From NCBI RefSeq assembly GCF_003047105.1, contig NZ_CP028472.1:124001-188000 (forward strand): 64,000 nucleotides of DNA, written 5' to 3'. Of the stretch, positions 16,242 through 34,235 are shown one piece after another. This DNA is from Celeribacter baekdonensis (GTDB taxonomy: Bacteria; Pseudomonadota; Alphaproteobacteria; Rhodobacterales; Rhodobacteraceae). The position numbers and the translations under genes were made by a program. Each line of letters begins with the position of its first letter. The stretch's first letter is position 1. The notes beneath the pieces are model-generated. The model saw only the letters and a list, made by a program, of their open reading frames with translations, made no database searches and was not told where the DNA came from.

Positions 16242-16901
16242 CTGCTGCATTCTGTGTTCGACAAGTCCGCCTGGCTGAAAGAGCGCGACATTGTGGAGCC
16301 GTGGCGTGTCGCCGGTCTTCCTGACAAAGTTCACGTCGACAACGGCGCGGATTTCCGCAGCCGCGCTTTCAAACGCGGCTGTGACGGCGCAGGAATCGCC
16401 ATTGGCTGACGGCCATCAGGCACGCCGCGGCTCGGCGGGCATATCGAGCGACTGATCGGCATGCAGATGGGGCGGCTGCATCTCCTGCCCGGAACGACCT
16501 TCAGCAATGAGCAGGATCTGGGTGACTACGACCCGAAGCGCCACGTGGCCCTGACATTGCGTGAGCTAGAGCGGTACATCGCGCTCGACATCGTCGGTTC
16601 CTATCATCAATCGATTCACGGCACCCTCAGTCGTCCACCACTGGCGGTCTGGTGGGAACACGAAGGAGACATCCCGCTCCGGCTACCGGAGGATCGACTG
16701 CGGTTCTGGCTCACCTTCCTGCTGGAACAAGAGCGGACCCTGCGGCTAACCGGCATTCATTTGTTCGGCCTGCGCTATTGGTCGGCGGCGTTGAGCGCCG
16801 ATTTGGGGCGGACCAAACGGCAATTGCTCGTCAAGTACGATCCCCGCGACATCTCGCGGGTGTTCGTCCGCCGCACCCTTGGAGACCCACCATCCGCATA
16901 A
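16242..16901 (+). pseudogene. tniA: TniA/Mu-type DDE transposase remnant with in-frame stop
   Basis: One open frame, broken by a single TGA at 16407-16409, encodes the second half of a TniA-type DDE transposase. Before the stop is VFDKSAWLKERDIVEPWRVA and the catalytic Asp strand KVHVDNGADFRS. After it comes GGHIERLIGMQMGRLHLLPG with the catalytic Glu, then the Mu-type C-terminal beta-barrel region (DIVGSYHQSIHGTLSRPP, LLVKYDPRDISRVFVRR). The N-terminal half with the DNA-binding domains and first Asp is missing, and the C-terminus ends early at 16901. It lies just inside the putative transposon end at 16151. Clearly inactive; the downstream ATP-binding partner TniB is absent. Confidence 0.72.
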
Positions 16902-18218: not shown

Positions 18219-19427
18219 TTAGTTGGTTTCCGGTGTGAAATGCTCGGCCAGATCAGGATTTGCGATCAGGTCACACATCTCATTCTCATAGCTTGGCGCA
18301 GCATCCTCGAACGTTTCGACAATGCTGAAACCGTGATCCGCATTACCTTCCGCGATATAAATGTTCTGACGAAGGTGGTGTGAACCGGGTTCCATCGTCA
18401 CTGTGCCGTTTGGCGCATCAAATGTAATGCCGCTTTCTAGCGCTGTGATCACCGCTTCCGGGGTCGCGTCGCCTGCTTTTTCAACTGCCGCAGCCCAAAC
18501 GTGGACAGCGTTCCATACATCTACGGCACCGGAAACGATGGGGGTGTCATCACCATATTTCGCGATCCACATTTCAACGAACTCGGCGTTGGCAGGGTTA
18601 TCCACTTGCATGAAATACCCTTGGCTGGCGATCAGGCCTTCACCGGCCGCCGGTGACACGACAACCTGCTGGTTGCCAGAGCCGTAATTGGACGACACGA
18701 CGCCGATGTCCTCTTTCAGACCGGCAGCGGCAAACTGCTCCAAGAACCCTGTCTGGTTCGCACCAACGGGCAGAGCCACGACAAAATCCGGACGCGACTG
18801 CTGAATTTTTTGAATTGTTGGCGAGTAGTCTGTGACCGTCAGTGCCAAGAAGTCTTCGCCGACGACCTGACCGCCGTTCTGCTCGGCATATTCGTGAATC
18901 CAATGCGCAGAAATCGTACCAAAGTTATAGTCCGGTGCCATGATGTAGATATTCGGGCCATACTGTTCGATTGCCCACTTAATCAACGGCTCAAGCTGTT
19001 GCGACGCGGACGATCCTGTCACGAATGTCTGTCGGTCACAGGCACCGCCCTCATAGAGCGAAGAGTAGAAGTAAGGAATATTTGCCTTGTGGAAAATCGG
19101 GCGGATCGCTTCGCGGGACGAACTGGTCAAGCCTGCAAACATGGCAGAAATGCCATCGCGCAACACTGATGTATTTGCATATTGGGTGTACTTGCTGAGT
19201 TCAGACTGCGAGTCGTAGCTGACGACCTCGATTTGTTCACCGAGCAGACCTCCGTTTGCGTTGATGCTCTCGACGGCAAGATCCAAGGCGTTGTCCTGCT
19301 AGATGCCGTAGATGTTCAGGCCACCAGTCAGATCGAAGATCGCGCCGACCTTGATATCTGCTGTTGCTGCGGACGCGGTCAGTGCCGCCGCCAGAGCAAT
19401 CACGCTGGATTTAAGATGCTTTTTCAT
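18219..19427 (-). pseudogene. Amide/urea-type ABC binding protein, interrupted by one amber codon
   Basis: Reading from ATG 19427 (AGGGAGA upstream) the frame gives a signal peptide (MKKHLKSSVIALAAALTASA) and a type I periplasmic binding protein of the FmdD/AmiC/UrtA kind, 402 codons in all. A single TAG at 19301-19299 (codon 43, where the family has Gln in a YGxQQDN-like segment) interrupts it. The rest is open and normal (DLAVESINANGG, SSREAIRPIFHKANIPYFY, EMCDLIANP). No permease or ATPase gene accompanies it. One base change (CAG to TAG) would explain the stop: true decay, or a base error. Confidence 0.75.
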
Positions 19428-20000: not shown

Positions 20001-21244
20001 CTAGACAACTATACCTGTTTCACACGTGCGGCCACCAATCACCGCGCGATCTCGCATCCCGTCGATCTTCTCTTCGGAATAACCCAATAGGTCTCGCAGA
20101 ACCTCTTGCGTGTCCTCGCCCAGACGCGACGGTGCCGTGGCCGCCTTTGGCCCTGCGCCGTCAAACCGGATCGGACCGCGCACCACTTTCATATCTCCGT
20201 CCAGCGGATGCGTGACCGTTTCGATCAACCCTTGAGCCGCCACATGGTCTTGCTCCAAGGCCTCGCCAATGGAGAGAATCGGCGCATTGGGGACATCAAA
20301 CTCGGTCAAACGTGCCAACCAATAGTCCGTGGTGTCTTGGCCCATGCGTTCGTGGATGATCGGCGTCAACGTGTCGCGGTTGGCCAGTCGTGCCTCGTAT
20401 TTGGCAAAACGCTCATCCTCGATAAGGTCCTCTCGCCCGAGTGAGCGCGCAAAGTTATGCCAAAAGCGCTCCACCAAACAGGCTACGATCACGTGTCCGT
20501 CCGAGGTCGGGAAGGAGCCATAGGGGACAATACTGGGGTGTTGCGTGCCTACAGGCTGCGGACTTTCACCCGTAACGAAATAGATTTGCGACAGGTAACC
20601 TTGAAGCGCAATGAGGCTGTCGAGCATCGCGATCTCGACATGCCGCCCTTGCCCTGTGACATTGCGCTCATGAAGAGCCGCCAACACGCCGAAGAGCGAA
20701 AAGATACTCCCCGCCATATCTCCCATCGGAATGCCGAGTTTGTTCGGTGCCTGTCCGGGTTCGCAGTTCACGCTCATAACCCCTGAGAGCGCCTGAGCGA
20801 CAATGTCGAAGGCGGGCTTGTTGCCATGCGGGCTTTCTTTCCCGAACCCCGTAATGGAACAATAAATCAGCGCCGCATGGTCAGCCTTGAGCCGCTCATA
20901 GCCCAAGCCCAGGCGATCCATCACGCCCGGTCGAAAGTTCTCCAAAACGATGTCGCTTTGAGCCGCAAGCTCTTTGGCGATTTGCACGCCTTCGGGGATT
21001 TGAGGTCAAGTGCGATGCTCTTTTTGCAACGGTTCAGGGCGATGTAGTAGTGGCTCATGCTGCCTTGAAAGGGTGGGAAGTTACGGGTCTCGTCGCCGTG
21101 CTCAATCGGTTCGACTTTGATGATTTCGGCCCCAAGATCCGCGAGCACCATGCTCGCGTAGGGACCAGACAAGATGCGGGAGAAATCGAGTACTTTGACG
21201 CCCGCGAGCGGGCCTTGATACTGCTCTGTCGGTTGCGTGGTCAT
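20001..21244 (-). pseudogene. CaiB/BaiF-family CoA-transferase, frameshifted
   Basis: Class III CoA-transferase that would move CoA between organic acids. The first part, from 21244, reads [20 protein letters not shown] and ends correctly at LDLKSP. The frame then shifts and resumes as [20 protein letters not shown]. The join is at CCCC on the coding strand (20997-20994), where one more C restores a 414-residue protein of normal family length. The catalytic Asp region (GxGDMAGSIFSLFGVLAALHER) is intact. It is first to be read after PaaI and IclR in a minus-strand cluster divergent from the acyl-CoA ligase. It could be a live gene with a sequencing error. Confidence 0.8.
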
Positions 21245-21652
21245 TTACATGGCCTTTCGAATGATTTTCATGACGGCACTGGCGAGGGCGATACTGCGCT
21301 TGCCGTCCACCACTTCGGCGTCCAAAAACAGCATGGAACCGGTCTTCTGACGCAGCACGGCCCGCGCTTCCAAACGCGTGCCGGGCTCGGATGCCCCGAC
21401 AAAACGCGTATCCATTTGTACCGTAACGCAAGGCGCGCGGTCGGCGGCATTCCACGCAACTGTTGCGATCACCTGATCGAGCAACGCAGTGATCGTCCCA
21501 CCGTGAACCAACCCCAAAAGATTGGCGTGTGCCTCTGTCGTCTCAAGCGCAAACAGTGATCCACCGTCCGCATCACGCGCCATCTTAATCGGCCCAATTG
21601 TCTGCATGAAAGCCCCCGCCTTTAGCGGCTTCCAGTTGCGCTCCTCCCTCAT
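21245..21652 (-). CDS. PaaI-family hotdog thioesterase
   Basis: Thioesterase of 135 residues that would hydrolyse acyl-CoA esters. The hotdog signature NLLGLVHGGTITALLDQVIA is clear, with the conserved His-Gly-Gly and an acidic residue on the central helix. The C-terminal strands follow (CVTVQMDTRFVGASEPG). It lies directly upstream of, and abuts, the CoA-transferase gene. In a pathway module it usually rescues CoA from dead-end thioesters. Confidence 0.82.
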   Translation of the reverse strand: MREERNWKPLKAGAFMQTIGPIKMARDADGGSLFALETTEAHANLLGLVHGGTITALLDQVIATVAWNAADRAPCVTVQMDTRFVGASEPGTRLEARAVLRQKTGSMLFLDAEVVDGKRSIALASAVMKIIRKAM

Positions 21653-21665
21653 GATCGTTCCTTTC

Positions 21666-22451
21666 TTATGTTACGTTTGTGATTTGCATTGCTTCGATGT
21701 CGTTACGGGTCTCGATCAACGCGCGTGCGAGCTTGGGAATTTCGTCGTTGCTCACGCGCTCGGAGATGCCGATGGCGACGAGGGAACGGATCATTTCTCC
21801 GCGCGCGTCGAACATCGGAACGGCGACAACGGTGACGCCGGAGATATAGGTGCCCACATCCACAGCATATCCGCGCGTTCTGGCCATCTCGATTTCGGCG
21901 ATCCAGTCCGCATATGTCGGCGGGTGATCCCAGACCAACCGCGCGAACTCCGACTTCAACCGGTCTTCGCCAAGGTTGTTGAAAGCCGCGAACAAACGGC
22001 CGGTCGCGGAAATCAACGGCGGAAAGCGTGAGCCGAGGTCCACCTGAAGGCGGAATGGCAACGAGGATTGCGACAGCGCGATGACGACCATCTGTCCCGG
22101 TTCCGCAAGCTGCGTTGCGATGGTCGTCACCCCATACCGAGACGACAAGTCAGACAAACGCGGCTGGATCATAACGGAAAAGGAATTCTTCTGCAGCGCG
22201 GCGCGCGCGAGCGGCAGAATGCCGATTCCAATCGAATAGCGCTTGGTGTGCGAATCAAATTCGACAAGCCCCTCGTCTTGCAACACGCGCAGGATGTGCA
22301 TGCAGGTGCTTGGCACCAACCCCAACTCCCGCGCCATCGGGTTGACCCCAACCGGATCACTGGCGCGCGCCAAGAACCTTAAGATTGCAACGGCTCGCGT
22401 CACTGCGGGCACCTGCCGCTTGGTCGTTTCTTTTGCTTCATTTGTAGACAT
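21666..22451 (-). CDS. IclR-family transcriptional regulator
   Basis: Regulator of 261 residues from ATG 22451. The N-terminal winged helix-turn-helix spans about residues 15-75 (NPMARELGLVPSTCMHILRVL), and the IclR effector domain follows (ISATGRLFAAFNNLGED, ISGVTVVAVPMFDARGE). It is the leading gene of the minus-strand trio with PaaI and the CoA-transferase. It faces the acyl-CoA ligase operon across 148 bases. It most likely senses the acid handled by that operon and controls both directions. Confidence 0.88.
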   Translation of the reverse strand: MSTNEAKETTKRQVPAVTRAVAILRFLARASDPVGVNPMARELGLVPSTCMHILRVLQDEGLVEFDSHTKRYSIGIGILPLARAALQKNSFSVMIQPRLSDLSSRYGVTTIATQLAEPGQMVVIALSQSSLPFRLQVDLGSRFPPLISATGRLFAAFNNLGEDRLKSEFARLVWDHPPTYADWIAEIEMARTRGYAVDVGTYISGVTVVAVPMFDARGEMIRSLVAIGISERVSNDEIPKLARALIETRNDIEAMQITNVT

Positions 22452-22483
22452 TGTCAGCCTCATCGTTCGCCATTTTCATTGCC

Positions 22484-22512
22484 TATATACAATAATAATA
22501 GCGTATTGACAA
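22484..22512 (-). promoter_or_regulatory. Probable iclR promoter (and overlapping divergent -35)
   Basis: On the minus strand, TTGTCA (22512-22507) is followed after 17 bases by TATATA (22489-22484), a good sigma-70 pair for the iclR gene. On the plus strand a perfect TTGACA sits at 22506-22511, almost the same bases. Its -10 (near 22529) is poor, so forward transcription may need activation. An IclR dimer here would touch both promoters. Confidence 0.45.
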
Positions 22513-22599
22513 TAACATATCCACATCCTTACCCTTGATGTCAACGAGCACGGCATCCCTGGGAGGGGCGAGCCGATGCACCAAGGGAGGAATTTGATT

Positions 22600-24159
22600 A
22601 TGGGTCGATTGACCGATTACACGTCCTATGCGGACGCCCAGTCGAAGTTTGCCAAAGAGGCGCTTTGGGACCTTTTTGACGGTACCCGTGAGCAGTTCAA
22701 CATTGCGCATGAGTGCATCGACCGCCACGTCGACGGAGACAAAGTGGCGATCCGGGTGGCCCATTCGAACGGACGTGACGAGATCATTACCTTTGCTGAA
22801 ATCGCGGCGCATTCTTCACGGATCGCTCATCACCTCACATCGCTCGGCTTGAACAAAGGTGACCGTGTTGCCGTGATGATCGAACCCTCGCTCGGCTTCT
22901 ACTGCGCCATCTTTGGCGCGATCAAGGCAGGCTTCGTCGCCGTGCCGATGTTCACCTTGTTCGGTCCTGATGGCATCAAGCTGCGCGTTGGCGATTGCCA
23001 GCCCGAAGTGTTTTTCACCAATGCCGAAAAAGCGGCCGAAGCCATCGAAGGCGGCGCGAAGAACGTCACCGTCGTCGACGCGGACTTTCTCGCCAGCCTG
23101 AGTCATCTGCCCGACACGTTCGAGTGCGCGACCGCAGGCACCGATCTGGCCGTGCTGCAATACACCTCCGGCACAACCCGCGCGCTGCCCGCCGCCGTGC
23201 ACCACAATCACCGCTCGATCGTGACACTGATGGTGGCAGCACTTTATGCCACGGGCATTCGACCCGGTGACCGTTTTTTCTGTCCCTCCTCGCCCGCATG
23301 GGGGCATGGCCTTTGGCACGGGACGCTTGCACCGTTGGCGATGGGCGTCTCCAGCGGCACGTTCTCGGGCAAGTTCGACGCCGAGCGCCTGTTGAGAGCG
23401 CTCAGTGAGTTCAAGATCACCAACCTTACCGCCGCCGCCACCCACTATCGGATGATGCGAAACTCTGGCGTCGCAGAGGACTACACATACTGCTTCGACA
23501 AGCTGTCTTTTACGGGCGAGCCGATCGACAGTGAAACAGCCGCGTATGTGGAGCGCATCTTCGGCACGAAAGTGCGTTCCATGTATGGCACCACCGAGAT
23601 CGGTGTGATCATCGCCAACTATCCGGGTGCCGATGACCTCGAAGTGCGTGATGGCGCCATGGGCAAGGCCGTTCCAGGCGTCGAGGTCGAAGTTCAACGC
23701 GACGACGGATCACGCTGTGACCCAGAAGAGATGGGCGAGATGATGGTCAAAAAGGGCGGCAAGTGGTTCCCGACCAAAGACCTCGGACGCGTCGACGTCG
23801 ACGGGTATTTCTACCACGGTGGCCGCGCAGACGACGTCATAATCTCTGCAGGTTGGACGATCGGTGCCGTCGAGGTCGAGGATGCGATCCTCAGCCACCC
23901 CGCCGTCTCCGAGTGTGGCGTGATCGGTGCCCCCGACAGCCTACGCGGCTTGGTGGTCAAAGCGTACATCATCCTCAAAGCGGCCGAGACCGAAGGCCTC
24001 ACGCAGAGCATTCAGGACCATGTGCGCGCCAAACTCGCGCGCCATGAATACCCCCGCCAAATCGAATTCGTCACCGAACTGCCCAAAACACCGGCAGGCA
24101 AGGTGAACCGCAAGATCCTGCGAGACCAGCAGGCCGCAAAGCTCGCTTCGGCTCAGTGA
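22600..24159 (+). CDS. AMP-forming acyl-CoA synthetase
   Basis: Ligase of 519 residues that activates a carboxylic acid with ATP and CoA. The start at 22600 follows AAGGGAGGAATTTGATT; an ATG at 22576 has no such site. The P-loop-like motif is YTSGTTRALPAAV, the variant form lacking the usual PKG. YGTTE, the hinge region GRADDVIISAGWTIGAVEVE, and the catalytic Lys501 in TPAGKVNRK are all present. It resembles acetyl/benzoyl-CoA ligase-type enzymes. As first gene of the operon with a TRAP importer and methylcrotonyl-CoA carboxylase-type enzymes, it probably activates the imported acid. Confidence 0.88.
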   Translation: MGRLTDYTSYADAQSKFAKEALWDLFDGTREQFNIAHECIDRHVDGDKVAIRVAHSNGRDEIITFAEIAAHSSRIAHHLTSLGLNKGDRVAVMIEPSLGFYCAIFGAIKAGFVAVPMFTLFGPDGIKLRVGDCQPEVFFTNAEKAAEAIEGGAKNVTVVDADFLASLSHLPDTFECATAGTDLAVLQYTSGTTRALPAAVHHNHRSIVTLMVAALYATGIRPGDRFFCPSSPAWGHGLWHGTLAPLAMGVSSGTFSGKFDAERLLRALSEFKITNLTAAATHYRMMRNSGVAEDYTYCFDKLSFTGEPIDSETAAYVERIFGTKVRSMYGTTEIGVIIANYPGADDLEVRDGAMGKAVPGVEVEVQRDDGSRCDPEEMGEMMVKKGGKWFPTKDLGRVDVDGYFYHGGRADDVIISAGWTIGAVEVEDAILSHPAVSECGVIGAPDSLRGLVVKAYIILKAAETEGLTQSIQDHVRAKLARHEYPRQIEFVTELPKTPAGKVNRKILRDQQAAKLASAQ

Positions 24160-24192
24160 CGCCGAAGCTCCCACCATTTAAGGAGAACGAAC

Positions 24193-25329
24193 ATGAACGA
24201 GATGACACGGAAGTTTCCGAAAATCACCGAAGAGGGTCTCGATGATCTTCGCAAGCGCATTGGCGTAAAGATCGAAAAGACCGTCGAGCCCTGGTGCTAT
24301 GAAGCCACCCGCGACAACATCCGCCACTATGCCCACGGCATTGGTGATGACAACCCGCTGTGGTGTGACCCCGAATACGCCAAGACCACCAAATACGGTG
24401 ACGTTATTGCGCTGCCGAGCTTCTTGTTCGCAACAAACCGCATCATCTCCGGCTATGTCGGCGGTCTGCCGGGTGTGCACGCGATGTGGTCGGGGGCCAA
24501 CTGGAACTGGCACAAGACAATCACACGCAACATGGAGTTCCGTACCGAAGCTGTGCTCAAGGACCTCATCGAGCACGACACCCGTTTCGCAGGCAAAGCC
24601 GTCCAGCAAATCTACCATGTGGACTTCTATGACGCGGCGACCGGTGATCTGGTCGCAGACGCGGATAGCTGGTGCTTCCGCACCGACCGCGACCAAGCAC
24701 GCGAAAACGGCACCAAGTACACAGCGGCCAAAGAGAACGGTCGTAAGGTTTGGACCGAGGACGAGCTCAACGAGTACTACAAGTACTACGAGCAAGAGGA
24801 AGTCCGTGGGTCCGAGACGCGGTACTGGGATGACATCAACGAGGGCGACGATCTGCCCACGATGGTCAAAGGTCCGATGACCGCAACCGGTTTCATCGCC
24901 TACGCCCAAGGCTGGGGTGGTCTTTACATCCGCGCCAACAAGCTCGCTTGGCAGTTGCAGCAAAAGCATCCCAGCGCCGGACCCAAAAACAAATTCGGCA
25001 TCCCCGATTGTCCTGAGCGCGTTCACTGGGAAGAAGAATTTGCGCTCGAAGTTGGCGCTCCGGGTGCCTATGACTACGGTCCCGAACGCACATCGTGGCT
25101 CACCCAGCAGGTTACCAACTGGATGGGCGATGATGGCTTCTTGCGTCAGGCAAAATGTGAGGTTCGCCGTCACAACCCCGAGGGTGACGTGATTCTCATC
25201 AACGGGTCGGTGACCCGCAAGTTCGAGGAAGATGGTAAGTATCTGCTCGAAATCCAGCAACGCGCCGAGCAGCAGGACGGGGAACTCTCCGCCAAGGGCT
25301 CCGCCATCGTCGAGCTTCCCAAACGCTAA
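24193..25329 (+). CDS. MaoC-like double-hotdog dehydratase
   Basis: Protein of 378 residues of the MaoC/FAS1-type dehydratase group, with two hotdog domains (about 20-180 and 215-370). The first has a hydratase-2-like segment, HYAHGIGDDNPLWCDPEYA, with the Asp and His expected for enoyl-CoA hydration or dehydration. The next block is YGDVIALPSFLFA. It follows the ligase by 33 bases with GGAGAACGAAC before the ATG. In this operon it could dehydrate a 3-hydroxyacyl-CoA, for example 3-hydroxyisovaleryl-CoA to 3-methylcrotonyl-CoA, the substrate of the carboxylase downstream. That role is inference. Confidence 0.8.
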   Translation: MNEMTRKFPKITEEGLDDLRKRIGVKIEKTVEPWCYEATRDNIRHYAHGIGDDNPLWCDPEYAKTTKYGDVIALPSFLFATNRIISGYVGGLPGVHAMWSGANWNWHKTITRNMEFRTEAVLKDLIEHDTRFAGKAVQQIYHVDFYDAATGDLVADADSWCFRTDRDQARENGTKYTAAKENGRKVWTEDELNEYYKYYEQEEVRGSETRYWDDINEGDDLPTMVKGPMTATGFIAYAQGWGGLYIRANKLAWQLQQKHPSAGPKNKFGIPDCPERVHWEEEFALEVGAPGAYDYGPERTSWLTQQVTNWMGDDGFLRQAKCEVRRHNPEGDVILINGSVTRKFEEDGKYLLEIQQRAEQQDGELSAKGSAIVELPKR

Positions 25330-25363
25330 TGGGAGCCGGCGCGTCAACCATAGGGAGGATGGG

Positions 25364-25855
25364 TTGCACGTGTTTGGAAGCATACTAAAAAAAATCGAGG
25401 ATTCCCTGCATCTTGTAGGGTGCCTCGGCCTTATTGCAGTCGTGGCGCTGATCAATGCGGACATTCTGCTCCGGTTGTTTTTTAACCATCCGGTGCAGTT
25501 CCAGTTCGAGCTCACAGAGCTTTATCTGATGCCCGCATTGGCCACTCTGTCCGTGTCGCGGGTATTCCGCGATGGTGGACATTTGGCTCTCGACTTCATC
25601 CCCGAGCTCCCCGGACAGATCGGGCGTTGGATTAGATTCACACGCCTGATCCTACCGGCTGCCTTCTTCGGTGCCGTGACTTACATGTCCGGACGCTTTG
25701 CGTTGCACGCATTCGTCAACTCAGACGTGGAATTCGGTGTCGTCGATTGGCCACTCGGATGGGCCTATGCCGTCGCCCCGCTGGGGTTCGGAATTCTGGC
25801 GCTGCGCCTCTTTCACGACGCTTTCGCAAAAGAGGTGCGTGTTCCAACAGATTAA
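25364..25855 (+). CDS. TRAP transporter small permease (DctQ family)
   Basis: Small integral membrane subunit of a TRAP importer, about 163 residues with four hydrophobic helices and the family's NPxxFxxE-like segment (FNHPVQFQFELTELYLMP). No ATG is available. AGGGAGGA at 25352-25359 points to TTG at 25364 or GTG at 25370. The gene sits just before the binding-protein and large-permease genes, completing the set. The rare start codon suggests low translation, common for DctQ. Confidence 0.85.
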   Translation: MHVFGSILKKIEDSLHLVGCLGLIAVVALINADILLRLFFNHPVQFQFELTELYLMPALATLSVSRVFRDGGHLALDFIPELPGQIGRWIRFTRLILPAAFFGAVTYMSGRFALHAFVNSDVEFGVVDWPLGWAYAVAPLGFGILALRLFHDAFAKEVRVPTD

Positions 25856-25882
25856 AAATATCGTTTCAGGGAGGAGACAGAT

Positions 25883-26884
25883 ATGACTATCGCAAAAAAC
25901 CTATTCGCCACTTTGGCAAGCGTCGCGGCTCTGTGCGCCACGACGGCCCACGCAGAAACCTTAAGCCTCGGGGATTTTCAATCCACAAGCCACATTGTGT
26001 CTGTCGAGGGCACAAGCAAATGGATGGCCGCAGTTGAAGAAGCCACCGACGGTGCAATCACCTTCAACCACTTTCCCTCGCAACAAGCGGCCAAGGCCAA
26101 AGCGCAGCTTGATGCCGTCAAAAGCGGCATCCTTGACGCCGCTCTGTTGGGGGCCTCTTATCACGCGGAGACAATGCCGTTGAATTCCGTGATCGGCCTT
26201 CCCGGCTATTACGGGTCGGCTGTAACGGGCACGATTGCACTGCAGGAAATGCTCGCCGAAGGCCCCCTGCGTGACGAAGTTCTGGCGGCTGGCGTGACGC
26301 CGATCTTCGGCTTTACGCTACCGCCGTACCAAGTCCTCGCCAAAAAACGCCTCGGCGCAACGTCCGACTGGAATGCGCTTGACGTGCGCACCTCCGGCGC
26401 GACACAGGCCATGACGGCCCGCGATCTGGGTGCTGTCGGGATCTCGATCCCTGGCCCAGAGGTCTACACTGCCGTTGAACGCGGTCGCCTTGATGCGGTT
26501 CTGTTCCCGCTGGCGTCGGTGCCCGGATACAAGCTGAACGAAGTCGTAAGTCACATTTCGACCAACGGCTCTTTTGGTGGCTACAGCTTCATCATGGTGG
26601 TGCGCTCCGAGGTCTTCGACACCCTCGACGCGGACGTGCAAAAGACAATGGTCACTCTCGGTTCCGAGGTCGCAACCCATGTGGCCCAAGTGCAAGACGA
26701 CATTGTTCTCTCTCTGATTGATGAATGGAAGGCCGAAGGGATCGACACCTACAGCTTTACGGAGGCCGAGCTTGATGAACTCCGCACCAGCATGTCGCCC
26801 GTGTCTACCGATTGGGTCACCCGCATGGGCGGCGAGAACGCGCAAGAGGTGCTCGAAATCTATAGCACCCTGACTGCCCAGTAA
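25883..26884 (+). CDS. TRAP transporter solute-binding protein (DctP family)
   Basis: Periplasmic protein of 333 residues. A signal peptide is visible (MTIAKNLFATLASVAALCAT, cleavage after AHA). The DctP fold follows, with AAVEEATDGAITFNHFPSQQ early and VRTSGATQAMTARDLGA in the ligand region; the conserved Arg that binds the solute carboxylate is expected there. It captures an organic acid for the DctQM channel, driven by the sodium gradient. Ribosome-binding site GGGAGGAGA precedes the ATG. The partner enzymes suggest a short branched acid as substrate. Confidence 0.88.
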   Translation: MTIAKNLFATLASVAALCATTAHAETLSLGDFQSTSHIVSVEGTSKWMAAVEEATDGAITFNHFPSQQAAKAKAQLDAVKSGILDAALLGASYHAETMPLNSVIGLPGYYGSAVTGTIALQEMLAEGPLRDEVLAAGVTPIFGFTLPPYQVLAKKRLGATSDWNALDVRTSGATQAMTARDLGAVGISIPGPEVYTAVERGRLDAVLFPLASVPGYKLNEVVSHISTNGSFGGYSFIMVVRSEVFDTLDADVQKTMVTLGSEVATHVAQVQDDIVLSLIDEWKAEGIDTYSFTEAELDELRTSMSPVSTDWVTRMGGENAQEVLEIYSTLTAQ

Positions 26885-26908
26885 CGCAAGGCTCAGTTAC
26901 GACACATC

Positions 26909-26936
26909 GAGTGGCCGGCCGTTGCGCCGACCACTC
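26909..26936 (+). terminator. GC-rich hairpin between TRAP binding-protein and large-permease genes
   Basis: GAGTGGCCGGC (26909-26919) and GCCGACCACTC (26926-26936), 10 of 11 pairs, 6-nt loop, 24 bases after the DctP stop. No U-run follows. It probably stabilises the upstream message or reduces read-through, giving more binding protein than permease. Confidence 0.5.
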
Positions 26937-26970
26937 TCCCCCCACGTCCTCAGGGAGCTCGCACCGTCCA

Positions 26971-28260
26971 ATGCTGACATTTGCCGCTATTTTGGCCCTT
27001 CTGGCTTTGTTCATGATCTTTCGAATGCCGATCGCATTCGCCATGGGCTTGACTGGGTTTCTCGGCCTCGCAATCCAACTCGGCCCGCGCCCCGCGTTTG
27101 CCGTGTTGGAGCGCACTTTCTTCGACAGCTCAGCCTCTTTCATTCTTGTGGCCATCCCGCTTTTTATCCTGATGGCAGAACTCTTGACCGCCGGTGATGT
27201 CACCCGTCGCGCCATCATTGCCTGTCAGGCATGGATCGGCCACGTTAAAGGCGGACTTGCGATGGCCACCGTCGGAGCTTCTGTCATTCTCGCCGCCCTC
27301 GTCGGCAGTTCGACGGCCTCCACCGCCGCGATGGCCTCTTCGGCCTTTCCGCAGATGCGCGATCACAACTATTCTCAACGTCTCGCCGCAGCCGTCGTGT
27401 CTGTGGGCGGCACGCTGGCTGTCGTTGTCCCGCCTTCGATCGTCCTGGTCGTCTACGGCGTGCTTACCGAGACCTCAATTGGCAAACTGTTCATTGCAGG
27501 CATCATTCCCGGCATACTAACAGCGCTTGGGCTAGCCGTGGTGATCAAGCTCATCGCCCACACCACTGACCAAGCCCCAAAAGGCGATCCGTTTCATCTC
27601 AAAACTGCCGTAAAATCCAGCCGCCATGTCTTTCCGATGGTTGCGTTGATGATCCTCGTGATCGGCGCGATCTACGCCGGCATCGCGTCACCCTCAGAAG
27701 CCGCAGCGCTCGGTGTCATGGGATCTCTGGTCATCGTTTTGCTGCAACGCACCTTGTCTTTTGCGGCGTTCAATCACTCGGTCTCTCGCGCCATCCGTGC
27801 GACCGTTATGATTGTGGCCATTGTCGCCTGTTCTGCGATCTTCTCCAACTATCTCGCCTTCACCCGCATCACTCACACATTGTTGGAATTTGTAGCAAAC
27901 ACCGAGATGTCACGCGTATCGATCATGGCGATCATCATCCTGGCGCTGTTGATCATGGGCATGTTCATGGACCAACTCGCAATTCTTTCGCTGGCCATGC
28001 CGCTCGCGTTTCCCACCGCGATGGCACTCGATTACGACGCCGTGTGGTTCGGGATCGTGGTGACCAAAACCGTGGAAATTGGACTCTTGACCCCACCACT
28101 TGGGTTGAACGCCTATGTTGCGGCGGCCCAGACGGGCGTGCCACTGGGCAAGATTTTCCGCGGCATCCTGCCCTTCCTAGCGATGGAGATTGTGGTCCTG
28201 TTGATCCTGCTCTCCTTCCCCGAACTGACCTTGTGGCTCCCGAGCCTGATGTCGTCCTAA
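26971..28260 (+). CDS. TRAP transporter large permease (DctM family)
   Basis: Integral membrane subunit of 429 residues with about twelve hydrophobic segments, the ion-coupled transport channel. The start at 26971 opens directly into helix 1 (MLTFAAILALLALFMIFRMP); the longer frame from 26911 crosses the hairpin and is unlikely. Family landmarks: GSSTASTAAMASSAFPQM, PPSIVLVVYG, MGMFMDQLAILSLAMPL, and LTPPLGLN near the end. It completes the DctPQM set. Confidence 0.9.
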   Translation: MLTFAAILALLALFMIFRMPIAFAMGLTGFLGLAIQLGPRPAFAVLERTFFDSSASFILVAIPLFILMAELLTAGDVTRRAIIACQAWIGHVKGGLAMATVGASVILAALVGSSTASTAAMASSAFPQMRDHNYSQRLAAAVVSVGGTLAVVVPPSIVLVVYGVLTETSIGKLFIAGIIPGILTALGLAVVIKLIAHTTDQAPKGDPFHLKTAVKSSRHVFPMVALMILVIGAIYAGIASPSEAAALGVMGSLVIVLLQRTLSFAAFNHSVSRAIRATVMIVAIVACSAIFSNYLAFTRITHTLLEFVANTEMSRVSIMAIIILALLIMGMFMDQLAILSLAMPLAFPTAMALDYDAVWFGIVVTKTVEIGLLTPPLGLNAYVAAAQTGVPLGKIFRGILPFLAMEIVVLLILLSFPELTLWLPSLMSS

Positions 28261-28285
28261 ACGACACTTAACCCAATCCGACGGC

Positions 28286-28318
28286 CCCCCTCCTGCGCGC
28301 TATGCGTGCAGAAGGGGG
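28286..28318 (+). terminator. Hairpin between TRAP and carboxylase genes
   Basis: CCCCCTCCTGC (28286-28296) and GCAGAAGGGGG (28308-28318), 10 of 11 pairs, 11-nt loop, 25 bases after the DctM stop and 30 before the carboxylase start. No U-run. It may be a partial terminator or processing site that separates the expression of transport and enzyme genes. Confidence 0.45.
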
Positions 28319-28347
28319 AGGTTTGCCCCCCACGACAGGAGAGACGA

Positions 28348-29955
28348 ATGACAATATTGCGCAGTAGCATCGCCTCGGGATCGCCCGCGTTCGCCGAGAA
28401 CCGAACCGCAATGGAGGCCCATTACGCTGAGATCGAAATCGAGGCCATGCGCGTGATGCAAGGTGGTTCGCAAGCCTCACGCAGCCGCCACGAAGCCCGC
28501 GGCAAACTCCTGCCGCGCGACCGCATTGCTGGCCTACTCGATCCCGGATCATCCTTTTTGGAAGTGGGTCTTTTTGCCGCCAGCGGGCACTACAATGACG
28601 AGATTCCCGCAGCAGGGGCTATTGCGGGCATTGGACGCGTCGAGGGGCGGGATTGCATGATCTTGTGCAACGATGCGACGGTAAAGGGCGGCACCTATTT
28701 CCCGCTGACGGTCAAGAAGCACCTGCGCGCGCAAGAGATTGCCGAGGAGTGCGAACTGCCTTGTCTCTACCTCGTCGACAGTGGCGGCGCGAACCTCAAC
28801 AACCAAGACGAAGTGTTTCCTGACCGTGACCACTTTGGTCGCATTTTTTACAACCAGGCCCGCATGAGCGCCAAAGGCATCGCGCAAATCGCGGTTGTTA
28901 TGGGATCATGCACCGCCGGCGGCGCCTATGTCCCCGCGATGAGTGATCAGACCATTATCGTGCGCGAGCAAGGCACGATTTTCCTCGCGGGTCCGCCACT
29001 TGTGAAGGTGGCGACAGGTGAGGAAATCGACGCCGAAACTCTGGGCGGGGGCGATACGCATACGCGCTTGTCAGGCGTTGCCGACTATCTGGCCGACGAT
29101 GACCGCCATGCTCTGGCGCTCGCCCGCGAGATCATCGCAAACCTCGGTCCTGCACCGCGTCCCAATATCGACCTCAAGACGCCTCGTGCCCCGCTTTTTC
29201 CTGCCGACGACATTATGGGCATCGTGCCCGCCAACGACAAATCGCCCTATGATGTGCGTGAAATCATCGCACGGATCGTGGACGGATCGGACTTTTCCGA
29301 ATTCAAACCGCGCTATGGCAATACTTTGGTCACGGGGTTTGCCCATATCGACGGCGTGCCGGTCGGCATCATCGCCAACAACGGCGTGCTGTTTTCGGAA
29401 AGCTCCCTCAAAGGCGCACACTTCATTGAGCTGTGTTGCCAGCGCAAAATTCCGCTCCTGTTCCTACAAAACATCACCGGCTTCATGGTTGGATCAAAAT
29501 ACGAGGCAGGCGGGATTGCAAAGGACGGCGCGAAACTTGTCAACGCAGTATCCACCGCGGACGTCCCCAAGATCACCGTCATCATTGGCGGCTCTTATGG
29601 CGCAGGCAACTACGGCATGTGCGGGCGTGCTTTCGGCCCGAACTTTGTGTGGATGTGGCCCAATGCGCGGATTTCCGTGATGGGCGGTGCGCAAGCATCC
29701 GGCGTGCTCGCAGGCGTCAAACGCGCAGGGATCGAGGCCAAGGGCGGAACGTGGTCACAGGAAGACGAGGACGAATTCAAACGTCCGACCATCGAGATGT
29801 TCGACCGTCAATCGCGCCCGCTCTACGCCTCAGCACGGCTGTGGGACGACGGAATCATTGATCCGCGTAAAACCCGAGACGTCATTGCGCTTTCACTACG
29901 GGCAACGCTCAACGCGCCCGTTAAAGAGACCTCCTTCGGCCTGTTCAGGATGTGA
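28348..29955 (+). CDS. Methylcrotonyl-CoA carboxylase-type carboxyltransferase (beta) subunit
   Basis: Biotin-dependent carboxyltransferase of 535 residues that moves CO2 from carboxybiotin to an enoyl-CoA. Start 28348 follows ACAGGAGAGACGA. The sequence closely follows the methylcrotonyl-CoA carboxylase branch: [59 protein letters not shown], and the C-terminal [20 protein letters not shown] oxyanion region. The biotin carboxylase subunit overlaps its end. Geranyl-CoA carboxylase is the alternative, but the HMG-CoA lyase downstream favours 3-methylcrotonyl-CoA. Confidence 0.88.
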
Positions 29956-29957
29956 TC

Positions 29958-31949
29958 ATGACCCCACCATTTGCAAAAATACTGATCGCCAACCGTGGCG
30001 AAATCGCATGTCGCGTCATCAAAACCGCCCGTCGTATGGGTGTCCAAACTGTGGCTGTGTTCTCCGACGCCGATCGCCATGCGTTGCATGTCGAGTTGGC
30101 CGATGAAGCCGTGCACATCGGTGCCTCCCCTGTAGGCGAAAGCTACCTTGTGGGCGACCGCATCATTGCAGCGGCCGTAGACACAGGCGCCGAAGCCATC
30201 CATCCAGGCTACGGTTTCCTCTCCGAGAACCCCGACTTCGTAGATGCCGTCGAAGCGGCCGGACTTGCCTTCATCGGCCCGTCGGCACGCGCGATCCGCG
30301 CCATGGGCCTCAAGGATGCGGCCAAAGACCTGATGGAGGAGGCGGGCGTACCCGTCGTTCCCGGCTATCAAGGTGCGAACCAAGACCCTGACTTCCTCGC
30401 CAACGAGGCCGCACAGATCGGTTACCCCGTTCTGATCAAGGCCCGTGCAGGCGGGGGTGGTAAGGGCATGCGCAAAGTGGATCGCCCAGAAGATTTTCGC
30501 GACGGTCTGGCCTCTGCAGTTCGCGAGGGCCAATCCGCATTCGGAGACCCACATGTTCTGATCGAGAAATTCATTACGTCTCCGCGGCACATCGAAGTGC
30601 AGGTTTTCGGGGACAACTACGGCAACGCAGTCCATCTGTTTGAACGTGACTGTTCGCTGCAGCGCCGTCACCAAAAGGTCATCGAGGAGGCCCCGGCCCC
30701 GGACATGACCGAAGAGGTGCGCGCGGCCATGACTGACGCCGCCGTAATGGCCGCAAAGGCCATCGACTATGCGGGCGCGGGCACCATCGAGTTCATCGTC
30801 GACGGATCAGGTCCGCTGCGCACAGACGGCTTTTGGTTCATGGAAATGAACACGCGCCTTCAGGTCGAACACCCCGTGACGGAAGCCATCACCGGCGTCG
30901 ATCTCGTGGAGTGGCAACTGCGCGTGGCCGCAGGGGAGCCTCTGCCTGTTGCGCAATCCGACCTGTCGATCAACGGGCACGCGTTTGAGGCACGCCTCTA
31001 CGCCGAAGACCCCGTGAACGGCTTTTTGCCAGCGACAGGGACACTCGACCACCTCTCCTTCTCAGACGCCGCCCGCAATGACACAGGCGTGCGCACCGGC
31101 GACAACATCAGCCCGTTCTACGATCCGATGATTGCTAAGGTCATCACCCATGGCGAAGACCGCTCCGAGGCGCTGGGGCGGTTGGTCCATGCGCTGCGCG
31201 GCACCCATGTTGCGGGAACCACGACCAACGCCGAGTTCCTCACCACGCTGGCACTGCACGAAGGATTTCAGACATGCCAGTTCGATACCGGACTGATCGA
31301 GCGCGATCTCGACGCGCTGACAACTCCCGCGCCGACCTCCGAAATCCATCTGGCCTTTGCAGCCATTGCGGGCCTCGGCATTGATCCCCAAAACCCCCGT
31401 TTAGGTTGGCGCCTTTGGGGGGACGCATCGCATCACGTTCTCTTACGCCAAGGCCCTGAACTTCACGAACGCCGCTTGATCTTGCATGCGGATGGGGCAA
31501 TCACCTTGGCCGGTGGCGAAGAGGCTCTAACCCTGCGTAATCTTACCCTCGAGGGGGCGCATGTCCGCGCCCGCACTGGCCCAACGAATGCGCAAGTTGA
31601 AGCCTGGATCATCCTCACACCAACTCCAGATGGGCTCTCGGCTTCTGTCCGTACGGGCGGCACTGTCCGCGATTTCCTGCTCTTTGATCCACGGGCGGGC
31701 CGCGCCGCCGATCTTGATCAGGGGCACGCGGTGGTGGCGCCCATGACAGGCACGATTGTGGCACTCGACGCCGCAGTCGGAGACACGGTGGCGGCGGGCG
31801 AAAAGCTCGGCGTCATCGAGGCGATGAAGATGGAAACCGCGCTGACCGCGCCACGCGCGGGCCGTATCGCCAGTGTGCTCTGCGCGGCGGGCAGTCAGGT
31901 CGAAGGCGGCGCTATCCTTGTCACACTTGAAGACGAGGAGACCACATGA
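29958..31949 (+). CDS. Methylcrotonyl-CoA carboxylase-type biotin carboxylase (alpha) subunit
   Basis: Biotin carboxylase plus biotin carrier, 663 residues from ATG 29958 (GTG 29952 also possible). The N-terminal LIANRGEIACRVIKTARRMG, the ATP-grasp glycine loop KARAGGGGKGM, EKFITSPRHIEVQVFGD and MNTRLQVEHPVTE mark the carboxylase domain (about 1-450). The carrier domain ends the protein with the biotinylation motif EAMKMETAL, target Lys near residue 624. A single-chain alpha subunit with BCCP fits acyl-CoA carboxylases rather than acetyl-CoA carboxylase. Nearly overlaps the beta gene and overlaps the lyase by four bases. Confidence 0.9.
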   Translation: MTPPFAKILIANRGEIACRVIKTARRMGVQTVAVFSDADRHALHVELADEAVHIGASPVGESYLVGDRIIAAAVDTGAEAIHPGYGFLSENPDFVDAVEAAGLAFIGPSARAIRAMGLKDAAKDLMEEAGVPVVPGYQGANQDPDFLANEAAQIGYPVLIKARAGGGGKGMRKVDRPEDFRDGLASAVREGQSAFGDPHVLIEKFITSPRHIEVQVFGDNYGNAVHLFERDCSLQRRHQKVIEEAPAPDMTEEVRAAMTDAAVMAAKAIDYAGAGTIEFIVDGSGPLRTDGFWFMEMNTRLQVEHPVTEAITGVDLVEWQLRVAAGEPLPVAQSDLSINGHAFEARLYAEDPVNGFLPATGTLDHLSFSDAARNDTGVRTGDNISPFYDPMIAKVITHGEDRSEALGRLVHALRGTHVAGTTTNAEFLTTLALHEGFQTCQFDTGLIERDLDALTTPAPTSEIHLAFAAIAGLGIDPQNPRLGWRLWGDASHHVLLRQGPELHERRLILHADGAITLAGGEEALTLRNLTLEGAHVRARTGPTNAQVEAWIILTPTPDGLSASVRTGGTVRDFLLFDPRAGRAADLDQGHAVVAPMTGTIVALDAAVGDTVAAGEKLGVIEAMKMETALTAPRAGRIASVLCAAGSQVEGGAILVTLEDEETT

Positions 31950-32806
31950 GCGACCATATTCGTGTCTACGAAGTAGGCCCCCGCGACGGCTTGCAAAACG
32001 AAAAGGCCCTCATCCCGACGGCGGCGAAGATCGGGCTTGTCGACATCTTGTCAACGGCGGGGTTCGAGAAGATCGAAGCCACAAGTTTCGTCTCCCCCAA
32101 ATGGGTGCCGCAACTGGCCGATGCCCGCGATGTCATGGATGGGATCTCTCGGGTGCCGACCGTGGACTATGCTGTTTTGACCCCGAACCTCAAAGGCTTC
32201 GAAATGGCACGCGCGGCGGGTGCGGACGAAGTTGCGATCTTCGCGTCCGCCTCCGAAGGGTTCAGTCAACACAACATCAACTGCTCCATTTCCGAGAGCC
32301 TTGAGCGGTTCACCCCCCTCATGGACGCCGCCCGCGATGCGGGCATCCCTGTGCGCGGCTACGTCTCCTGCGTGGTGGCCTGTCCCTATGATGGCGCTGT
32401 CGCACCCGAAGCTGTGCGTGATGTGGCTCACGCTCTCAAACAGATGGGCTGTTACGAGATCTCCCTCGGCGACACCATCGGAGCTGGCACTCCCGAAAGC
32501 GTGTCTCGAATGCTCAAGACAGTGCTCGAACGCATTCCTGCGCAGAGCCTCGCGGGACACTTTCACGACACGGGCGACACCGCGCTCGGCAATGTAGAGG
32601 CATCTCTTGATCTCGGCTTGCGCACATTTGACAGCGCGGTCGGCGGCCTGGGTGGTTGCCCCTATGCCCCTGGCGCGAAGGGGAACCTTTCGACCCTTAC
32701 CTTGGTGGAGCGCCTAGCCTCACTCGGCTACGACACGGGCATTGACATAGACGTCCTGCGCGCTGCTGAACGCCTTGTAAGCGACATGACCAAACTGACA
32801 GTATGA
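31946..32806 (+). CDS. Hydroxymethylglutaryl-CoA lyase
   Basis: Lyase of 286 residues that splits 3-hydroxy-3-methylglutaryl-CoA into acetoacetate and acetyl-CoA. It has a TIM-barrel HMGL-like domain. The N-terminal EVGPRDGLQNE carries the metal and catalytic Arg/Asp. FHDTGDTALGNV gives the metal-binding His. The active-site loop GGLGGCPYAPGAKGN includes the catalytic Cys. All key residues are present. ATGA overlap with the carboxylase gene shows tight coupling. It is the last carbon-splitting step of the leucine-type branch. Confidence 0.92.
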   Translation: MSDHIRVYEVGPRDGLQNEKALIPTAAKIGLVDILSTAGFEKIEATSFVSPKWVPQLADARDVMDGISRVPTVDYAVLTPNLKGFEMARAAGADEVAIFASASEGFSQHNINCSISESLERFTPLMDAARDAGIPVRGYVSCVVACPYDGAVAPEAVRDVAHALKQMGCYEISLGDTIGAGTPESVSRMLKTVLERIPAQSLAGHFHDTGDTALGNVEASLDLGLRTFDSAVGGLGGCPYAPGAKGNLSTLTLVERLASLGYDTGIDIDVLRAAERLVSDMTKLTV

Positions 32807-32816
32807 GGACACGACC

Positions 32817-33617
32817 ATGAGCTATGAAACAGTGCGCCTGACCATAGACGCGCGTCAGGTTGCGACCGTCACTCTTGCCCGCTCCGCCAAACACAATGCG
32901 ATGGACGCAGTAATGATCGCGGAGTTGACCGCCGTCGCCGAACGGCTCGCCAACGATGAAAACGTGCGGGTTGTTGTGTTGGAGGCAGAGGGCAAGACTT
33001 TCTGTGCGGGAGGAGACCTTGGCTGGATGCGAGCGCAGGCCAATAAGGACCGCGCTGGCAAGATGGAGGAGGCGATGACTTTGGCCCGCATGTTGGGCTG
33101 TTGGAACGCTCTACCCAAACCCGTAATCGGGCGCGTCCACGGCGCGGCCTATGGGGGCGGACTGGGGCTGATCTGCGTCTGTGACATCGTCATCGCCGAA
33201 GACGCGGCCCGGTTCGCGCTCACTGAAACACGCCTCGGCTTGATCCCCGCAACCATCGGTCCGTTCGTGGTGAGCCGCCTTGGTGCGTCTTTCGCGCGTC
33301 AGGTCTTTTTCAACTCGAAACCTTTTGATGTGGGCTTTCTGATCCGCGCAGGTGTCGTGGCGAAAGCTTGCCCTGCGGCTCATCTCGACGATGCAGTCGA
33401 GGCCGAAGTCGTGCAGTTTCTGCAATGCGCACCGGGAGCGGTGGCCGAGGCCAAGGCGCTCTGCCTTGCGCTTGGTGGAGCCGATCCCATCGCTGCTGCG
33501 GCGTTCTCTGCGTCGGCATTGGCCGACCGTTGGGAAACCACCGAAACCCGTGACGGCATCGCCGCCTTCTTTGCAAAGGAAGAACCAGCATGGCGCAACG
33601 GAAGCACAGATGCGTAA
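32817..33617 (+). CDS. Enoyl-CoA hydratase, methylglutaconyl-CoA hydratase-like
   Basis: Crotonase-fold protein of 266 residues. The oxyanion-hole motif is FCAGGDLGWM and the second is GAAYGGGLGLICVCDIVIAE. The catalytic Glu lies in ALTETRLGLIPATIGPFV. These forms match LiuC-type 3-methylglutaconyl-CoA hydratases, which supply HMG-CoA to the lyase just upstream. It follows the lyase by ten bases with GAGGACACGACC before the ATG. With the carboxylase and lyase it gives a complete path from 3-methylcrotonyl-CoA to acetoacetate plus acetyl-CoA. Confidence 0.88.
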   Translation: MSYETVRLTIDARQVATVTLARSAKHNAMDAVMIAELTAVAERLANDENVRVVVLEAEGKTFCAGGDLGWMRAQANKDRAGKMEEAMTLARMLGCWNALPKPVIGRVHGAAYGGGLGLICVCDIVIAEDAARFALTETRLGLIPATIGPFVVSRLGASFARQVFFNSKPFDVGFLIRAGVVAKACPAAHLDDAVEAEVVQFLQCAPGAVAEAKALCLALGGADPIAAAAFSASALADRWETTETRDGIAAFFAKEEPAWRNGSTDA

Positions 33618-33708
33618 GATTTTCTGCACCGCCTCCGAGGCCCTTGGCGGGCTTTTGACCGACGGCATGTTGATTGCGTCAGGCGGGTTTGGGCGCGGCA
33701 TCGTTTAA
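33610..33708 (+). pseudogene. 3-oxoacid CoA-transferase subunit A, N-terminal remnant
   Basis: The reading frame overlapping the hydratase stop encodes 32 residues beginning MRKIFCTASEALGGLLTDGM and reaching IASGGFG, the typical start of succinyl-CoA:3-ketoacid CoA-transferase subunit A. Homology ends around 33695 and a stop follows at 33708. The intact gene would have activated the acetoacetate produced by the HMG-CoA lyase. The operon's 3' end has therefore been lost, replaced by unrelated fragments. Confidence 0.65.
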
Positions 33709-33820
33709 TTTGCGGGTCGCGATCAATGAAGCGATGACGCCCCAGTTTGCGGCTCCTGCGCCCGCGAAGAGCAGTCTAATCGGGCGCTGCAAGCTGAACG
33801 GGGCGAACCTCATGCATATT
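33700..33820 (-). other. Unrecognised gene fragment in the scar
   Basis: The minus strand holds an open stretch ending at TGA that reads like the C-terminus of a protein ([20 protein letters not shown], then [15 protein letters not shown]). It was not recognised and starts abruptly at the next fragment. Possibly a third broken gene. Confidence 0.3.
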
Positions 33821-33823
33821 TCA

Positions 33824-33943
33824 CATGGGTATCTTCATGAGTTTTCCGGCGGGCAAAGACAACGGGTCTGCATCGCACGCGCGCTGACCCTTGAGCCAAA
33901 TTTGATCGTTGCTGACAAAGCGGTATCTGCGCTCGACGTCTCC
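33824..33943 (+). pseudogene. Fragment of a peptide ABC-transporter ATPase (DppF/OppF type)
   Basis: Forty codons cover only the signature and Walker B region: [35 protein letters not shown]. In working proteins Walker B ends DEP; here DK replaces it, so even this piece has drifted. It continues without a stop into the Tn3 fragment. Confidence 0.7.
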
Positions 33944-34235
33944 GATCAGTTTGGCCCATTCGCCACCCAGAACATTCCGGCGACCGTGAACGAAGCGCCC
34001 TGCATCCTGGACGGTCTGCTCATGAACGAGGTCGGGCGAAAAATCAAAGAACAATACGCCGACGCCGGAGGCTTCACGGATCACGTCTTCGCCATCACTG
34101 CGCTGCTGTCATATCGGTTTATTCCCCGGATCCGTGATCTGCTGTCCAAAAGGCTCTATCTTTCGACCCAGCTGCAGCCCCAAAGCAATTGCAGGGCCTG
34201 ATTGGCGGCAAGATCAGGGAGAAGGTGGCATTCCG
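33938..34235 (+). pseudogene. Tn3-family transposase fragment
   Basis: From [20 protein letters not shown] through [20 protein letters not shown] to RFIPRIRDL the frame matches the catalytic region of Tn3-type transposases. It then shifts frame near 34190, where [13 protein letters not shown] continues the same protein. About 95 of nearly 1000 residues remain. The join to the ABC fragment falls in a shared Val-Ser. Confidence 0.72.

Follow-up and report, generated by a model that had tools for sequence, protein, structure and literature searches.

Which substrate feeds an operon of the lower leucine pathway in a bacterium in which the usual entry enzyme, isovaleryl-CoA dehydrogenase (IVD), is not recognisable? 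The question is raised by a stretch of Celeribacter baekdonensis DNA of 64,000 nucleotides, hereafter the window (G000:C1:124001-188000, from a genome of 4.44 Mb in 6 contigs), in which genes for methylcrotonyl-CoA carboxylase (MCC) share an operon with a TRAP transporter, an acyl-CoA ligase and a double-hotdog protein. Our overall reading, to which we give a probability of about one half, is that this is an import-and-use operon in which a C3-substituted 3-methylbutanoate would be imported, activated and beta-eliminated and would so enter the lower leucine pathway. The open reading frames (ORFs) of the window were annotated by Pfam and NCBIfam scans; genomes and loci are referred to below by G and L numbers, respectively. 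The features of the locus are the following.

20001..21244, minus strand: family III CoA transferase of the CaiB type, interrupted by a frameshift (PF02515)
21245..21652, minus strand: hotdog (4HBT) thioesterase (PF03061, 42.8 bits; best NCBIfam match PaaI-like, under the cut-off)
21666..22463, minus strand: IclR-type regulator (PF01614 and PF09339)
22479..22513: conserved sites of the divergent promoter, probable operator (TTGNNTATATACAAT at 22479-22493 and GTATTGACAAT at 22503-22513)
22576..24159, plus strand: acyl-CoA ligase, AMP-forming, acetate/MbcS-like (PF00501 and PF13193)
24193..25329, plus strand: double-hotdog hydratase/dehydratase-like protein ('MaoC', FAS1_DH/MaoC-like), proposed beta-elimination enzyme
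25343..25855, plus strand: TRAP small permease DctQ (start inferred, the ORF opens at 25232; PF04290, 63.6 bits)
25883..26884, plus strand: TRAP solute-binding protein DctP (PF03480; model pLDDT 73.5)
26911..28260, plus strand: TRAP large permease DctM (PF06808, 289.8 bits)
28348..29955, plus strand: MCC beta subunit (784.6 bits to Pseudomonas aeruginosa MCC beta, 3u9r)
29952..31949, plus strand: MCC alpha subunit, biotin carboxylase and biotinyl domain (Pfam; EAMKM biotin site)
31946..32806, plus strand: 3-hydroxy-3-methylglutaryl-CoA (HMG-CoA) lyase (NF004283, 434 bits, cut-off 246; 377 bits to the solved 1ydn)
32817..33617, plus strand: enoyl-CoA hydratase, probable 3-methylglutaconyl-CoA hydratase, LiuC-like (NF005675, 359 bits, cut-off 350)

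All of the genes named at these places in a preliminary description of the locus were confirmed by Pfam and NCBIfam, except that CaiB is not one ORF. It lies in two frames, ORF 20921-21244 matching residues 1-80 of the PF02515 profile and ORF 20001-20987 residues 76-366, and it is a single ORF of 413 aa in the congeners G003 and G017. The gene looks broken here, be it by a real frameshift or by an assembly error. The TRAP complement of DctP, DctQ and DctM is complete in the operon, the alignment of MCC beta begins at the ATG at 28348 and not at the ORF start at 28306, and comparison with relatives puts the start of DctQ probably near 25343. The arrangement is not due to chance, because other species share this gene order.

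Clusters for acyclic terpene utilisation combine geranyl-CoA carboxylase (GCC), an enzyme of the same lineage, with a hydratase and a lyase. Compared with these clusters, the beta subunit of the window is much nearer to MCC than to GCC: it aligned with P. aeruginosa MCC (PaMCC) from the first to the last residue, gapless over 535 residues, and scored only 473.5 bits against GCC. A terpene cluster was thus ruled out (785 versus 474 bits, favouring MCC). The gapless alignment to PaMCC also implies that the three-residue insertion is present which, in PMC4673880, serves as the MCC-specific criterion against GCC. Counting from the native Met puts Gly at position 191, and Phe residues close to it are conserved with respect to PaMCC; the numbering behind the active-site 'Phe191' of that source differs. 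The MCC of the window is the sole MCC in the genome, and the one other match, a carboxyltransferase 36% identical, would be propionyl-CoA carboxylase-like. The same MCC-lyase-hydratase block is present in relatives, and the NCBIfam match of the hydratase together with its position in the block makes it probable that it acts as 3-methylglutaconyl-CoA hydratase.

The preliminary description had noted that this block comes without IVD, and the observation was borne out for the whole genome. With the IVD adjacent to the ordinary MCC of congener G002 as the query, ten genomes were searched, six of them from the 20 available Celeribacter genomes, and all candidates were scored. IVD was not found in the operon or elsewhere in G000 (10 candidates, best match 36% identical), nor in the congeners G003 (best 41%) and G017 (best 33%), both of which have the same operon; in the same search it was likewise not found in G001 and G007. 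Matches of 64-84% were obtained in G022, G024, G086 and G100, G002 being the query's own genome. Among the 20 Celeribacter genomes MCC occurs in four (G000, G002, G003 and G017) and the hotdog protein in three. As no recognisable IVD is present, the MCC block seems unable, in the species of the window, to take part in leucine breakdown in the known way. In the family we sampled 394 genomes, about one per genus, with the first 3-4 candidates scored per genome (all candidates were scored for IVD in G000, G003 and G017 and for MCC in eight hotdog genomes). MCC beta was found in 308 and IVD also in 308 of the 394, and comparison of the two lists by hand gave nine of the 308 MCC genomes without IVD (G000, G027, G041, G125, G157, G227, G254, G279 and G402), of which only G000 and G125 are at least 99% complete. 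Genome G125, 99% complete, with MCC and no IVD, gave no match to the hotdog protein at the thresholds applied and possibly has another IVD-free entry.

The preliminary description held that IVD is replaced by the ligase, or CaiB, together with a dehydratase. The pair of ligase and hotdog protein is supported; for the CaiB variant, the gene is interrupted by a frameshift in this assembly. In the scheme that we propose, the TRAP system would import a monocarboxylic acid, the ligase would convert it with ATP to its CoA ester, and the double-hotdog protein would remove the group at C3 to yield 3-methylcrotonyl-CoA, the leaving group being water if the acid is 3-hydroxyisovalerate (3-hydroxy-3-methylbutyrate). 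MCC would then form 3-methylglutaconyl-CoA, the hydratase HMG-CoA, and the lyase acetoacetate and acetyl-CoA. On the divergent arm, an intact CaiB would normally exchange CoA between the acid taken up and the product, the thioesterase may free trapped CoA, and IclR would govern both arms from the sites at 22479-22513. Entry at 3-methylcrotonyl-CoA is likely; 3-hydroxyisovalerate as the main substrate is the best single guess, with odds that fall slightly short of even.

The ligase, double-hotdog protein, CaiB, thioesterase and IclR make up a module that is widespread in alpha- and betaproteobacteria. A profile search of genome contigs with a hotdog alignment returned 567 loci, and in the best 80 of these the ligase was present in 79, IclR in 73 (relatives of at least 40% identity), CaiB in 66, the thioesterase in 52, TRAP DctP in 35 and MCC beta in 17; since some loci end at contig ends, presence counts are lower bounds. 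In the gene order of relatives the ligase gene directly precedes the hotdog gene, and where sources name the hotdog members they are called 'FAS1-like dehydratase domain-containing protein' or 'acyl dehydratase'. A TctC receptor, which is unrelated to DctP, occurs in 26 loci, in one of them alongside DctP, and in 25 of these loci it is no more than 3 kb away from the hotdog gene (the family was set by clustering and one representative checked by Pfam). The earlier claim of a dedicated uptake system was thus upheld, a receptor being present in 60 of the 80 loci, TRAP in 35 and TctC in 25 more. One module locus, in Ketobacter, contains a second double-hotdog-like protein (L121:6105-7283), 27% identical and next to a weak ligase match, which is possibly a sister module with another substrate. 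In L064 an HMG-CoA-lyase-like match (67%) lies downstream of dctM, with no MCC match in the locus.

That the module and MCC are repeatedly found joined is the strongest argument for the module supplying the substrate of MCC. By our estimate, a single MCC placed at random in each genome of 4.5 Mb would fall within 10 kb of the module in about 0.36 of 80 loci, and the Poisson probability of at least five MCC-linked loci is 3.7e-5, a value to be taken only as a guide because the loci are related. On the hotdog tree (84 rows, 19 of them MCC-linked) the linkage requires 13 changes, gains or losses, of which at least eight are forced by well supported branches; 12 changes remain without 20 short loci. 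The MCC beta tree (48 rows, 46 of them different, 18 linked; L092 was excluded as too short) requires four changes of linkage, three of them forced. Ten linked MCCs including that of the window form one clade (SH-aLRT 100), whose stem has a length of 0.5, and the window sequence falls outside the resident Rhodobacteraceae group. The linked MCCs of L107, L112/L113/L125, L093, L099 and L091/L095 fall outside the ten-member clade. In L091 and L095 the MCC genes are inverted and lie on the opposite side of the module; in the betaproteobacterial locus L107 an IVD-free MCC block comes after ligase-hotdog-CaiB-TctC; and in L084 MCC beta and alpha are present, with lyase and hydratase not seen. In L063, L092 and L095 the examined DNA ends within the locus. 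IVD was absent from the examined DNA of 14 of the 17 MCC-linked loci, and the three that have it (L112, L113 and L125) are from Alcaligenaceae, with an acyl-CoA dehydrogenase ahead of MCC.

Two further genomes bear on the function of this type of MCC. In G126 and G153 the fetched region of 14 kb around IVD contains no MCC gene, and the module-linked copy, 85-86% identical to that of the window, is the only MCC of the genome (next match 35%, all candidates scored). The reliance of these genomes on the module-linked copy fits a true 3-methylcrotonyl-CoA carboxylase. G212 has both kinds of MCC as well as weaker carboxylases. In G153 (L144:6646-9733) the two ORFs after IVD are not MCC; going by their first residues, they resemble a 3-hydroxyisobutyryl-CoA hydrolase and a 3-hydroxyisobutyrate dehydrogenase.

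The 'MaoC' gene encodes a protein of 378 aa with a double-hotdog fold and not a short MaoC, and enzymes similar to its model include dehydratases and hydratases that act on C5 branched acyl-CoAs. It is 11-17% identical to the double-hotdog hydratases and dehydratases 4v12, 5i7n, itaconyl-CoA hydratase PaIch and mesaconyl-CoA hydratase MeaC, from which it differs by an apparently altered catalytic motif. In MaoC-type hydratases this motif is an Asp-His pair with standard spacing. H278, which all of 50 sequences share, aligned with the motif His of two MaoC proteins, 4rv2_B and 5i7n.

Several observations weigh against the import-and-use reading. In the hotdog protein, the nearest Asp (272) is one residue off the usual Asp-His spacing, the first half has Trp57 (49 of 50 sequences) in the column where related hydratases have His, and the confidence of the model is moderate overall and below 50 near the presumed active site (31-53 and 274-277). 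As for the receptor, several of the nearest solved relatives of DctP found by Foldseek, at about 17-24% identity, bind aromatic monocarboxylates, their ligands including cinnamate, coumarate, caffeate, ferulate and 4-hydroxyphenylacetate; one is titled as a receptor specific for aromatic acids, and 4nap, 4p56 and 4n6d presumably belong to the same aromatic-binding group. By VIA-align, TRAP receptors whose ligand is not shown rank slightly above the aromatic binders. These relatives are suggestive of an aromatic ligand and count against a C5 acid, though not decisively.

The distribution of the module raises further objections. No MCC was seen in the examined flank of 63 of the 80 module loci; 20 of the 84 rows of the hotdog tree, all without a seen MCC link, are too short to judge. 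Mameliella alba is one carrier of the module with no MCC in the fetched flank. MCC is present in all 29 genomes with a clear hotdog ortholog (10 of the family, 15 of the class, and G086, G100, G003 and G017; G036, G038 and G071 were excluded as weak matches, E 2e-5 to 6e-4, and G773 at 44% identity was retained). However, in the family the comparison is of 10 out of 10 hotdog genomes with 308 out of 394 overall. In the class, where up to five candidates were scored per genome, MCC occurs in 17 of 17 genomes with the hotdog protein against 18 of 38 controls (P 6.6e-5), but also in 15 of the 18 controls of at least 2.5 Mb (counted by hand). As controls of similar size are mostly MCC-positive, the co-occurrence at the genome level is weak by itself. 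Moreover, IVD is found elsewhere in the genome in 9 of 10 hotdog-bearing genomes of the family and in 12 of 15 of the class, so that the missing IVD is a trait of the Celeribacter carriers and not of the module.

Given the aromatic kin of DctP, the odd Asp-His spacing and the equally fitting beta-valine (3-amino-3-methylbutyrate), the substrates named in the preliminary description, 3-hydroxyisovalerate or 3-methylcrotonate, are not established, and other acids have to be weighed. If the acid were beta-valine or another C3-substituted 3-methylbutanoate, such as a thioether, the hotdog protein would be a CoA-dependent ammonia (or thiol) lyase. This is unlikely, even though a precedent exists: the Pseudomonas sp. 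SBV1 cluster, with MCC beta, hydratase, MCC alpha, HMG-CoA lyase, an amino-acid transporter, BvaA and BvaB1/B2, is proposed to serve beta-valine use, and BvaA with BvaB1 or BvaB2 gave 3-methylcrotonyl-CoA in vitro (PMC4619459). The layout is the same, as would be the product, with an MCC block, a transporter, a ligase and a beta-elimination enzyme (there a hydratase-like enzyme that removes ammonia), and Table 1 of that source contains no IVD. By the descriptions in PMC4619459, however, its transporter, ligase class and elimination enzyme are of other families: an amino-acid transporter, a phenylacetate-CoA-ligase-like ligase and crotonase-like enzymes, as against the TRAP system, acetate/MbcS-like ligase and double-hotdog protein of the window, which has in addition CaiB, thioesterase and IclR. 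Nor is there a steady signal of nitrogen genes among the 20 recurrent neighbour families of the module, where an ornithine-cyclodeaminase-like family occurs in four loci and a Cys/Met pyridoxal-phosphate enzyme in three. The locus of the window follows the logic of the bva cluster with other protein families and probably another leaving group. It is also improbable that 3-methylcrotonate is the substrate and that the hotdog protein handles a side product, e.g. by rescuing 3-hydroxyisovaleryl-CoA. Such a route would need only the ligase and the MCC block, both of which are present, but the ligase accompanies the hotdog protein in 79 of 80 loci (found through the hotdog protein; ligase-only loci were not sought), and so constant a partner suggests that the hotdog step is obligatory.

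A larger, perhaps aromatic, monocarboxylic acid, with MCC joined through a branched C5 piece or for unrelated reasons, would agree with the aromatic-acid binders among the close solved relatives of DctP, with the long stem of the window-type MCC clade and with the many module copies that have no MCC nearby. We give it a small chance, as the DctP identities are just 17-24% or so, no ring-cleaving enzyme occurs among the 20 recurrent neighbour families (by Pfam; families in one or two loci were left unannotated), thiolase is found in only five loci and acyl-CoA dehydrogenase in three, and carboxylase matches other than MCC lie near the module only in L098, L141 and L049. Very improbable is an ordinary leucine or isovalerate operon that is merely short of IVD, another acyl-CoA dehydrogenase doing the step. 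The MCC block, with MCC alpha and beta, 3-methylglutaconyl-CoA hydratase and HMG-CoA lyase, is indeed that of liu operons, and a Paracoccus yeei plasmid has the order IVD-MCC-MCC-lyase-hydratase-AMP ligase. In contrast to liu operons, the window has its own importer, ligase and hotdog protein, and IVD is wanting in the operon and the genome, where the best dehydrogenase is 36% identical, as well as in the DNA of most MCC-linked loci (14 of 17); the hotdog protein, the receptor and the MCC-free module copies would all be left unexplained. The reading as a liu operon of the ordinary kind was rejected for want of IVD. The cai system for carnitine likewise uses a ligase, CaiB and a dehydratase on a 3-hydroxy acid, but its dehydratase has a different fold and its product a different fate, and the sequence link considered is the CaiB family.

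The earlier statement that no dedicated uptake-and-use locus had been described for these acids needs a qualifier, since the beta-valine cluster is laid out alike and differs in its entry enzymes (PMC4619459). In the open-licence literature no locus for the use of 3-hydroxyisovalerate or 3-methylcrotonate was found. Aquincola is said to degrade tert-amyl alcohol by a route via 3-methylcrotonate. We tentatively propose, as a view somewhat more apt to fail than to hold, that a system for 3-hydroxyisovalerate use, undescribed in the open-licence literature that was searched, is widespread in alpha- and betaproteobacteria. It would comprise a new family of 3-hydroxy-3-methylbutanoyl-CoA dehydratases (double-hotdog proteins whose active site is shifted and whose substrate is a tertiary alcohol), a TRAP or TctC receptor and, in hosts without leucine breakdown, a dedicated MCC block. 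If this were true, 3-hydroxyisovalerate would be a routinely exchanged metabolite, the ligase-hotdog pair found in 79 of 80 loci would gain a function and the TRAP and TctC receptor families an assignment, and bacteria without the usual entry enzyme would be seen to use the lower leucine pathway as an end route for acids that they import.

The divergent promoter is conserved as well. Of 36 alphaproteobacterial gaps between IclR and ligase, 34 contain the site ATTGACAA on one strand or the other. The exact long site was found at 11 places in 8 of 13 genomes, two pairs of these being both strands of one palindrome, and 10 of the 11 lie at the module locus by coordinates. The scan of the 13 genomes for the exact site, aimed at distant liu operons, gave no sign of distant MCC control. 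A second operator-like copy of the palindrome lies off the module in G017 (G017:C16:12109-12123), near a contig end.

A megablast search of PLSDB with the operon matched 30 records, none of which covered 80% of the query. The matches listed (20) fell on carboxylase genes or unannotated stretches with 70.5-74.4% identity, and one further record outside them had 90-95%. A urea-type ABC binding protein (18219-19286) lies near the operon; its match begins at profile residue 25-26, so it is perhaps truncated or its start mis-called. A Fic-domain protein of 515 aa (34361-35908) adjoins the operon. Fragments of transposases flank the operon, of the Mu type at 16461-16901 and of Tn3 at 33674-34201, the latter in the same ORF as an ABC-ATPase fragment, and their presence on both sides suggests that the operon is part of a rearranged and perhaps mobile segment.

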